DNA of 64,000 nt, taken from positions 186,001-250,000 of the forward strand of contig JAFXAU010000031.1 of assembly GCA_017516865.1 (NCBI GenBank), written 5' to 3'. Position 1 is the first letter of the stretch. Every line of letters starts with the position of its first letter. The translations under genes and the position numbers were made by a program. The notes under the pieces are model-generated. The model had not been told where the DNA came from and ran no database searches. It worked only from the letters and a program-made list of their open reading frames with translations. This DNA is from Bacteroidales bacterium. Its GTDB lineage: Bacteria > Bacteroidota > Bacteroidia > Bacteroidales > UBA1715. Shown here one piece after another: positions 59,083-62,736 of this stretch.

Positions 59083-59170
59083 GGAAAGTTGGGTGAGTGG
59101 CTGAAACCAACAGTTTGCTAAACTGTCGAACGGGATTACCGTTCCGGGGGTTCGAATCCCCCACTTTCCG
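59083..59170 (+). tRNA. tRNA-Ser (anticodon GCT)
   Basis: An 88-base class II tRNA: acceptor GGAAAGT/ACTTTCC with discriminator G, anticodon arm ACAGT-TTGCTAA-ACTGT (anticodon GCT), a long variable arm (CGAACGGGATTACCGTTCCG) and T arm GGGGG-TTCGAAT-CCCCC. No CCA encoded. Confidence 0.97.
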
Positions 59171-59180
59171 CAAAACAAGG

Positions 59181-59208: not shown

Positions 59209-59284
59209 TTTCAATAATAAACGAAAAGATCTAAAGGATTGTCGGGTATGTATTTGTTTCCCCTACGTCAAAAAAACTCATTAT

Positions 59285-59345
59285 AAAAAAGGAGGAACGA
59301 CAATTTGGGGCGCCGTCCCTCCGAGGTCATAAGATAGAATAATTT
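59285..59345 (-). ncRNA. Candidate small RNA between tRNA-Ser and the cobalamin riboswitch
   Basis: A minus-strand promoter with good spacing (TTTG, 20 bases, TATATTTG, 59352-59383) would start RNA near 59345. A 9-bp stem GGAGGGACG / CGTTCCTCC (59291-59322, one G-T wobble) followed by six T ends it, giving about 60 bases. A 20-codon frame starting MTSEGRRPKLSFLLFY runs through the hairpin, so a peptide is possible but less likely. Confidence 0.5.
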
Positions 59346-59351
59346 CTCATG

Positions 59352-59383
59352 CAAATATAATTTTTTTTCGATGCAAATGCAAA
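59352..59383 (-). promoter_or_regulatory. Promoter of candidate small RNA (TTTG-N20-TATATTTG)
   Basis: -7 box TATATTTG at 59352-59359, 20-base spacer, TTTG at 59380-59383. Points away from the cobalamin riboswitch. Confidence 0.6.
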
Positions 59384-59442: not shown

Positions 59443-59450
59443 TACTTTTG
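59443..59450 (+). promoter_or_regulatory. -7 promoter box TACTTTTG of the B12 uptake operon
   Basis: Perfect TAnnTTTG box a few bases before the cobalamin riboswitch. No clear -33. Confidence 0.6.
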
Positions 59451-59672: not shown

Positions 59673-61667
59673 ATGCGAAAAAGAATAGTACATATTCTAC
59701 TGCTGTTGCTATGCACGGCATCAACGGCGCTTTGTCAATCAGTCAACGACACGATTCTGATTGACATGGTAACCATTACCCCATTTGAACGTATCACTCC
59801 CTCTGGCGAAAAAGTCGACTCTTTCGATTCGCTTTCGCTCAAAGCTGCCACATATAAAAACATTGGCGAATTTCTTGCACACAATAGTAATGTAATCATA
59901 AAAAACTACGGAACCGAAGGTATGACAAGTTCCCTGTCCTTGCGGGGCGCGGGAAACTCTCGTACGCAAATTCTTTGGGAAGGACTGTCGCTGAACGCCA
60001 TCAGCAACGGCGAAAACAATCTTTCGCTCGTCCCAATTTCATGTTTCGACAACATTACAATAAATTACGGCGCTTCTGCCACAAACTTCGGGAATGGGAC
60101 ATTCGGCGGCGCAATCAATCTTAAATCAACGCCATTATTCAAAAAACATGCTTCGGCACACGTTTTCGCATCCTACGGGAGTTTCAAAACCTACAAAACA
60201 AACGTAGGCTATTCTGTGGGAACAAAAAAAATCCAATACAAAGGCGGTTTCTTCTACAGTCAATCTGAAAGCGACTTTGAATACTACGACTACATTCGTT
60301 TAGAAACACTGAAACGAAAAAATGCGGACTATTTCAAATATGGAACAATCCAAAATCTACACATAAAATTCAACGACAAACTACATGCACAAGCAGCTTT
60401 GTGGTATCAGGTAAACGATGCGAATCTGCCATCGATTATGGGAAACGTGTCAAACGAAGTACAATACCAATCGGATTCTTCACTACGGGCATTGGTTTCG
60501 CTACAGTATAATATTAACAGCAAAAACAAACTTTCGTACAAAACTGCCTACATTGACGATTATGAACTATACACCCACAAAGCTTCGCCACAAGCCTCTA
60601 AATATATGGAATACAGCGAAATGCAAACATGTACCAGCCAACATTTTTTGCAATTCATCCATAAAGAACAAACCCAAAATACCGGCACATTTATTTACGA
60701 AGCCGAGTTACAAGGGAAAATTGCACAAGCCGATGTTACCAACTACGGAGGAAAGAAAAAGGAATCTTCATTCGCCGGTATTCTGCAATGCAACCATTTT
60801 ATTGATTTCAAAGGTGGAACGAACGTAACAACGGGACGACTTTACACACAACTTTCTATAAGAAAGGAATTTAACACCCAATACTCTATCCCATTCATTG
60901 TAAATATCGGTTCGGAATATCACATGAATAACCGAAACGAAAATCCTTTAATCATCAGATTTTCAACAGGAAACAAATATCGCACACCCACATTCAACGA
61001 CCTGTATTGGGTTGCTTGGGGAAATCCCGAACTGCTTCCCGAATATGGCTTCTCGATTGAATTTGGTATTCGTAAATCATTCTTTTCATCAGAAAAATGG
61101 TATCATATCACTACCGACATAACAGCTTATCATTCTACACTTAACGATATGATTATGTGGACACCCGCAGGTGCAGTTTGGCATCCTATGAACACAGCCC
61201 AAGCCGTACTGCAAGGATTGGAATTTTCGTTGGAACAAAGTAACACATCAACAAACAAACCATTACAATTTAGCAACAAACTGCAAGTAAACGTAAATAA
61301 TCCGCACATCACAAAGATGTACGATACGACAGAAACTACCAATTCTCAAGAAAGCGAGTCGGTAGGACATATTTTGTATTATGTTCCCCGACTCGCACTC
61401 CACTTTCAGCCACACATTTCATATAGGAATTGGGAATTGTCAGTTTTTGTGAATTACGAGGGGAAACGTTATTTCAATTTAGAGAAAACACTTGACGCAT
61501 ACACATCGGTTGATGTCAATCTAAAGAAATCGTTTGAATTGAAAAACGCAAAACTTGCAGTCGGCGGACAAATACGCAACCTAACCAATGCAACGTACGA
61601 GCAAGTCCGCTCCTACCCGCTTCCGGGACGAAATTTTGAAATTTATTTACAATGTTTAATCAATTAA
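59673..61667 (+). CDS. btuB: TonB-dependent outer-membrane cobalamin receptor (BtuB-like)
   Basis: A 664-residue protein with signal peptide (MRKRIVHILLLLLCTASTALCQ). The plug domain shows MTSSLSLRGAGNSRTQILWE GLSLNAISNGENNLSLVPIS and the NFGNGTFGGAINL block; the barrel ends with QVRSYPLPGRNFEIYLQCLI, the usual C-terminal aromatic strand. The riboswitch in front and the BtuG-like gene behind identify the substrate as a cobamide. No N-terminal carboxypeptidase-like domain. Confidence 0.93.
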   Translation: MRKRIVHILLLLLCTASTALCQSVNDTILIDMVTITPFERITPSGEKVDSFDSLSLKAATYKNIGEFLAHNSNVIIKNYGTEGMTSSLSLRGAGNSRTQILWEGLSLNAISNGENNLSLVPISCFDNITINYGASATNFGNGTFGGAINLKSTPLFKKHASAHVFASYGSFKTYKTNVGYSVGTKKIQYKGGFFYSQSESDFEYYDYIRLETLKRKNADYFKYGTIQNLHIKFNDKLHAQAALWYQVNDANLPSIMGNVSNEVQYQSDSSLRALVSLQYNINSKNKLSYKTAYIDDYELYTHKASPQASKYMEYSEMQTCTSQHFLQFIHKEQTQNTGTFIYEAELQGKIAQADVTNYGGKKKESSFAGILQCNHFIDFKGGTNVTTGRLYTQLSIRKEFNTQYSIPFIVNIGSEYHMNNRNENPLIIRFSTGNKYRTPTFNDLYWVAWGNPELLPEYGFSIEFGIRKSFFSSEKWYHITTDITAYHSTLNDMIMWTPAGAVWHPMNTAQAVLQGLEFSLEQSNTSTNKPLQFSNKLQVNVNNPHITKMYDTTETTNSQESESVGHILYYVPRLALHFQPHISYRNWELSVFVNYEGKRYFNLEKTLDAYTSVDVNLKKSFELKNAKLAVGGQIRNLTNATYEQVRSYPLPGRNFEIYLQCLIN

Positions 61668-61677
61668 TAGTATCAAA

Positions 61678-62736
61678 ATGAAAAAAAATGTTTTAAAAAT
61701 CGCGAGCATAGTTCTCGCAGGAAGTTTTGCATTAACAGCATGTGACAATGGAAAAGACGACCCGCAACCATCTGAAAAATATTCCGATGTGCCATTCGTT
61801 GTGTGCGAAGGAAACTTCAATGCAAACGAAGGTTCCATCGACGTGATTATTGACGGCGAAGTGAAAAAAGATATTTTCCAATCAGAAAACAACCGTCCCC
61901 TCGGTGACGTTGTTCAATCAATGGAAATCATTGGCGACCAAGCATTTATTGTTGTAAACAATTCTGGTAAAGTTGAAGCGGTCAATATGTTCACATTCAA
62001 AAGCGAAGGAACGTGCACTGGACTCTCCTACCCTCGTTACGTTGTAAATCGCAATGAAAACGAAATTTTTGTGTCGAACGGCAGCGGCGACGGAAACGAC
62101 TATGTATATGTGGTTAATAAACTATCTATGCAAAAAACTGACTCTGTGCCAACTGGACTTGGTCCAAACACAATGGTCGTGTCGAATGGAAAATTGTTCG
62201 TGGCTAATTCTGGAGGCTGGGGAACCGACAAAACTGTCACTGTAATTGACACAAAAACGCTGAAACTTGAAAAAACAATCACCGTTGGCGATAATCCATA
62301 CGATATGGATGTTGACGCACAAGGTAACATTATCGTATTTTGCAAAGGTTTAACAGAATACGATGCCGATTGGAATCCGACTGTTGTTTCAAATTCAGCA
62401 ATTTACACAATTAACGGCTCTACATTAGAAGCAACCGCGACAAAACAATTCGACCATCAATTCGCAAGCTACGGAGGCAATCTTCTTGCTTGCAACGGCA
62501 ACACGGTTTATTTTATCGACGACGCTGTTTATTCAATGACAAATAACGGAGAACCGACAAAATTAATTGAGGGAACCGACTTCTACGGAATCAGCGTTAA
62601 TGCTAAATCAGATGAAATATGGGTTACTCAAACGCCTTACGGAGCTTCGCACAGCGTATCGCAATACAGTGCAAATGGTACATTAGTTAAAACCTATAAA
62701 GTCTCGAACCAGCCAAACGCAGTAGTGTTTGATTAA
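61678..62736 (+). CDS. btuG: Surface cobalamin-binding beta-propeller lipoprotein (BtuG-like)
   Basis: A 352-residue lipoprotein (MKKNVLKIASIVLAGSFALTACDNGKDD; lipobox LTAC). The mature part is a YncE-like seven-bladed propeller, with repeats such as YVYVVNKLSMQKTDSVPTGL and TVIDTKTLKLEKTITVGDNP YDMDVDAQG. In Bacteroides thetaiotaomicron, BtuG lies on the cell surface over BtuB and binds cobalamin very tightly. The gene starts ten bases after the btuB stop, under the same riboswitch. Confidence 0.88.
   Translation: MKKNVLKIASIVLAGSFALTACDNGKDDPQPSEKYSDVPFVVCEGNFNANEGSIDVIIDGEVKKDIFQSENNRPLGDVVQSMEIIGDQAFIVVNNSGKVEAVNMFTFKSEGTCTGLSYPRYVVNRNENEIFVSNGSGDGNDYVYVVNKLSMQKTDSVPTGLGPNTMVVSNGKLFVANSGGWGTDKTVTVIDTKTLKLEKTITVGDNPYDMDVDAQGNIIVFCKGLTEYDADWNPTVVSNSAIYTINGSTLEATATKQFDHQFASYGGNLLACNGNTVYFIDDAVYSMTNNGEPTKLIEGTDFYGISVNAKSDEIWVTQTPYGASHSVSQYSANGTLVKTYKVSNQPNAVVFD

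Follow-up and report, generated by a model that had tools for sequence, protein, structure and literature searches.

Evidence for a conserved small RNA gene in one genus of gut Bacteroidales, adjacent in one species to a cobalamin riboswitch

When a promoter and an intrinsic terminator lie some sixty bases apart in intergenic DNA, they may mark a small RNA (sRNA) gene, the leader or terminator of a neighbouring gene, or a mere coincidence. Such a segment occurs between tRNA-Ser and btuB, on the minus strand of the 64,000-nucleotide stretch of Bacteroidales DNA analysed here, which we call the window. The initial annotation of this DNA proposed a self-contained sRNA gene of about 60 bases, and hinted at a link to the B12 uptake operon from which it diverges. 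We ask whether the segment is indeed a gene, whether it is tied to B12, and how its product might act.

The gap in which the segment lies is, as had been claimed, devoid of genes: to one side is tRNA-Ser(GCT) (59083-59171, plus strand), with its own hairpin and T-run directly after it, and to the other the cobalamin riboswitch, which starts at 59445 (plus strand). The features of the unit are collected in Table 1.

Table 1. Features of the proposed sRNA gene in the window.
Feature	Position	Strand	Basis
Promoter, Bacteroidota sigma-ABfr type, exact TTTG-N20-TATATTTG, reading TTTGCATTTGCATCGAAAAAAAATTATATTTG	59352..59383	-	pattern match
RNA 5' region as far as the foot of the hairpin, the putative seed for pairing, reading GAGAAAUUAUUCUAUCUUAUGACCUC	59323..59348	-	cross-genome alignment and fold
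Terminator hairpin, GGAGGGACGGCG-CCCCAAAU-UGUCGUUCCUCC (as DNA, GGAGGGACGGCG-CCCCAAAT-TGTCGTTCCTCC)	59291..59322	-	11 conserved pairs, all standard in 7 genomes
Terminator U-tract, T6 (TTTTTT)	59285..59290	-	sequence reading
Whole sRNA gene	59284..59348	-	covariance model R1 match, independent, E 8e-9

The promoter is well spaced, as first described, and some 35 bases (CATGAGAAATTATTCTATCTTATGACCTC) separate it from the hairpin. Its spacing predicts an RNA start at 59346-59350, so that the transcript would be about 62-65 nt long and end at the U-tract, near 59285. The terminator and its T6 run stand as originally read. The stem, given then as 9 bp, is in fact stronger: it has 12 pairs including G-U, 11 of them conserved, and closes a loop of 8. 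The sRNA strand (66 nt) folds at -21.9 kcal/mol compared with -12.2 for shuffled sequences (z -3.5), and none of 200 shuffles is as stable. The opposite strand of the same segment folds in an ordinary manner (z 0.07), and the hairpin read on the plus strand has no T-run 3' of its stem.

How often would such a unit arise by chance? In the 64-kb window we count 9 occurrences of the promoter pattern, against 3.1 expected. If we define a pair as a promoter and a strict terminator separated by 20-150 nt, then the sRNA unit is the only pair in the 64 kb, both strands considered, and 0 of 60 dinucleotide shuffles of the window yield any pair at all. Thus, the suggestion that a self-contained unit is unusual for chance sequence is borne out. 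The 121-bp segment is also single-copy in its 2.66-Mb genome, where the next-best match consists of 16 bases within the promoter; the search for further copies proposed at the outset therefore rules out a multi-copy repeat family. Membership of a known RNA family was likewise rejected: no Rfam family matches at its gathering threshold, and the weak matches are those of chance.

A DNA search finds similar stretches in three congeners of the window genome (G000). We built a covariance model, R1, from those three congeners only, leaving out the window sequence, and ran it over 14 genomes of the family, comprising 7 of the genus (G000 and six relatives, G001-G006, from the same gut Bacteroidales genus) and 7 others. 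Exactly one strong copy is found in each of the seven genus genomes, with E-values of 1e-20, 2e-20, 1e-18, 2e-18, 1e-13, 2e-13 and, for the window, 8e-9. A convincing copy is absent from all 7 of the other family genomes searched, and possible second copies in G000 and its relatives are weak in the R1 search (E 0.04-0.5). With a second model, made from all seven genus sequences, only members of the genus score above 32 bits among 393 genomes of the order; the matches at 27-31 bits are unrelated terminators that lack the 5' part. In a sample of 395 genomes from the phylum, the window genome alone is matched. Finally, a 20-base core pattern, TTACACACCTCNCGGAGGGA, matches six contigs among 84,980 species genomes, all from Bacteroidales MAGs, and these are the same six relatives; where a source is stated, it is horse faeces, yak reticulum or water-buffalo rumen. 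One further locus (L103) matches the terminator arm over 27 bases but failed to score as a copy of the sRNA. A search of IMG/VR for phage carriage does not return the exact core, and we found no description of this sRNA sequence in the literature.

The seven copies allow us to compare the conservation of the RNA with that of its surroundings. G003 and G004 have the purT side of the locus in common; their RNA copies are 97% identical, whereas either flank reaches 46-47%, the random level being 47%. For G005 and G006 the corresponding values are 97% for the RNA and 71-81% for the flanks, and in more distant pairs the RNA is 78-83% identical against flanks at random level. The pair G001 and G002 is uninformative on selection, because its flanks (89%) are as similar as its RNA (86%). 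The hairpin is paired in all 77 cells of the alignment (11 pairs in 7 genomes), with 100% standard pairs, and every control in which the register is slid pairs worse than the true one. In two of the pairs both partners have changed (GC/AU/GU in one, CG/UA in the other), as the proposed check for covariation among relatives had sought. An equal degree of covariation is reached by 12 of 500 shuffles. With 7 sequences and 2 pairs the signal is modest, supportive rather than conclusive.

Conservation extends to the promoter, in that the -7 box TAnnTTTG ends 4-6 bases 5' of the modelled RNA start in 7/7 genomes; the exact -33 TTTG is found only in G000 and G006. The 5' region of the six relatives reads [A/G]AGAAAUUAnunUAunUUACACACCUCnC or near to it. 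Its conserved part is UUACACACCUC in those six species and UUAUGACCUC in the window species, which has UAUGACCUC in place of the relatives' CACACCUCnC. The most constant bases span the foot of the hairpin, and all seven genomes have in common ACCUC-(NC)-GGAGGGA together with the hairpin, whose loop varies (CCCCAA versus GUUUC). The 5' half is predicted to be mostly single-stranded in 5 of the 7 sequences, and partly paired, at low energy, in G000 and G001. No open reading frame is shared, since starts and frames differ across the seven genomes.

These comparisons uphold the proposed sRNA gene: there is one copy in each genus genome, the RNA is kept where the flanks are randomised, the -7 box keeps an almost constant distance, the hairpin is compensated, an ORF is absent, and in most cases no gene follows downstream. 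Sequence analysis strongly supports an autonomous intergenic sRNA gene, with a promoter and an intrinsic terminator of its own, set in DNA free of other genes; the unit is conserved as an RNA rather than a protein, independently of its neighbours.

Those neighbours differ from one species to another. The sRNA follows purT on the same strand in G003 and G004; G005 and G006 have it between yicC and recG; in G001, G002 and G003 a small lipoprotein-like gene is convergent with it; and a DUF3276 gene that adjoins pyrB is divergent from it in G001 and G002. This last arrangement (L042, 1736-2044, in G001, and L043 in G002) is absent from the other five genomes; DUF3276 is a PUR-domain nucleic-acid-binding family. 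The order of genes around the sRNA, tRNA-Ser and the B12 riboswitch is not kept in the genus, though the purT proteins are 88-95% identical.

In none of the six relatives does a cobalamin riboswitch occur within about 5-8 kb of the RNA, and their tRNA-Ser and B12 regions are either on contigs other than that of the RNA or not adjacent to it. The hinted link to the B12 operon is therefore not sustained: because the relatives' RNA loci lack a nearby cobalamin riboswitch, the B12 neighbourhood of the window copy appears incidental, and we reject an element of the B12 regulon or of the riboswitch itself, the RNA being unlinked to B12 genes in the relatives. As for the window's own B12 region, the cobalamin riboswitch is followed on its 3' side (59673-62736, plus strand) by a TonB-dependent receptor, with a weak match, below cut-off, to the TonB-B12 model, and then by a lipoprotein that matches YncE-type surface proteins of solved structure, 3dsm among them (E 4e-21). 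We take these two genes to be, probably, a btuB-btuG pair.

Could the segment serve an adjacent gene, or encode a protein, rather than yield a free RNA? A short, promoter-proximal terminator is what one would expect of a 5' leader or attenuator of the gene downstream. The orientation of genes excludes a cis leader role in most of the genomes, and orientation or distance refutes it in 6 of the 7: the next gene is convergent in G001, G002, G003, G005 and G006, and in the window the next minus-strand gene, rpsF, starts about 450 bp further on, beyond the opposite-strand tRNA. Only G004 has a co-directional gene (TauE) nearby, and we consider a leader highly improbable. Slightly better placed, yet still very unlikely, is a terminator that belongs to a neighbouring gene and has a promoter upstream of it by chance. 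The position of purT upstream on the same strand in G003 and G004 would suit this explanation, as would the convergent gene that ends at the hairpin in G001-G003; but no gene points in from upstream in the window, the plus-strand reading of the hairpin is without a T-run, and where the copy sits elsewhere in the genome, about 29 bases 5' of the hairpin are still kept, as is the -7 box, something unexpected of a mere terminator. Least probable of all is a very small protein gene. The window copy does contain ATG-started frames of 7 and 20 codons, but starts and frames are not common to the seven copies, and no frame in G006 reaches 5 codons.

We favour an autonomous sRNA that acts in trans, probably by pairing through its 5' region near mRNA starts and repressing those mRNAs in the manner of FopS and GibS in Bacteroides; we assign this reading a probability of roughly 0.7. 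Action in trans is suggested by the fact that the neighbours vary between species while the RNA stays. In this model sigma-ABfr RNA polymerase would start at about 59348-59346 and stop at the U-tract, producing an RNA whose 5' half, rich in pyrimidines and A, is mostly single-stranded and precedes the terminator hairpin. The conserved 5' region would then pair with mRNAs near the start of translation. Since neither RRM_1 nor Hfq is detected in the genus, the RNA would work unaided or with some other protein: a search for RRM_1 (PF00076) proteins such as RbpB finds none in the 7 genus genomes, with a positive control in Bacteroides ihuae, and a search for Hfq also finds none in these genomes, its control having worked.

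Against pairing stand the searches for complements, which return no conserved target, and the 5' region of the window species, which differs from that of the relatives and is partly paired in the predicted fold. Outside the sRNA locus, GAGGTGTGTAA, the exact complement of UUACACACCUC, turns up in 3 genomes only, at unrelated places inside genes or antisense to them. The 9-mer GAGGTGTGT, complementary to part of this conserved region, has no orthologous 5'UTR or start-site matches among the genus genomes. In G005 (L114, L135) it overlaps a response-regulator gene start and also precedes a probable yidC by 31 nt; the search returns no such match in the sister genome G006. Across the seven genomes GAGGTGTGT occurs 38 times compared with 89 for the reversed pattern, a scarcity that may reflect avoidance of pairing or dinucleotide bias only. 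The lack of a conserved target is what one would expect if the conserved sRNA instead bound a protein, or the ribosome, as a titrating decoy, with ACCUC-(NC)-GGAGGGA and the hairpin as the recognition element. This explanation, which we regard as unlikely but the most serious competitor, also accords with the constancy of the bases across the hairpin foot, and with an alternative CCUC-nCG-GAGG hairpin that is possible in the unfinished transcript of the six relatives. In a variant of it, the ACACCUC stretch might bind Shine-Dalgarno-like sites, ACACCUC being the anti-Shine-Dalgarno tail of 16S rRNA. However, the CCUC-nCG-GAGG hairpin cannot form in the window species, where ACACCUC reads UGACCUC, and the loop of the terminator hairpin is unconserved.

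The trans-acting reading draws on several sRNAs described in Bacteroides. FopS sRNAs are about 65-70 nt long, with sigma-ABfr promoters and a 5' single strand followed by a terminator; in B. thetaiotaomicron the 5' end pairs near start codons and blocks translation, and the RRM-1 protein RbpB counteracts FopS (PMC11697453). The new sRNA resembles them in size, in promoter, in its predicted single-stranded, conserved 5' end preceding a Rho-independent terminator, and in its scattered intergenic sites. It differs in having one copy per genome, as opposed to 12-15 in the Bacteroides species given (PMC11697453), and in belonging to a genus in which RbpB is undetected; the comparison is one of layout and not of seed, and no Rfam family comes near threshold. 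GibS of B. thetaiotaomicron is a trans-acting, intergenic, single-copy sRNA with a single-stranded 5' seed and a terminator (PMC7366714), a description that would fit the new sRNA if it acts in trans as we infer. GibS, however, is 145 nt long, with two extra hairpins and a PM2 promoter (PMC7366714), whereas the new sRNA is about 62 nt long and has the canonical promoter. More generally, B. thetaiotaomicron has 49 'high-confidence' intergenic sRNAs with a TSS and an intrinsic terminator, and the canonical promoter precedes 76% of its intergenic sRNA candidates (PMC7366714). The new sRNA shares the defining layout of the high-confidence set, but is predicted from sequence, restricted to a genus, and found in uncultured Bacteroidales.

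In the window species UGACCUC stands where the relatives have CACACCUCnC; this difference could mean either that the regulon has changed or that ACCUC and the hairpin are the part that matters. A bolder proposal, which we advance tentatively and think rather doubtful, is that this RNA is the founding member of a genus-restricted family of trans-acting sRNAs, operating with neither Hfq nor RbpB, whose pairing region was rewritten in one species and whose regulon was possibly switched.

We regard the result as sound but not as a surprise, because the family is small, no target was found, and such a layout is common among Bacteroidota sRNAs. Judged by its sequence, the RNA looks like an sRNA of the standard intergenic Bacteroidota kind, in a family so far undescribed. 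We found no sRNA study on uncultured Bacteroidales of herbivore guts in the literature, and to these organisms the present analysis adds an undescribed sRNA family, first predicted from sequence alone and then upheld by an independent comparative test. It also offers a case for regulation that would be independent of a chaperone, or that would rely on an unknown one.
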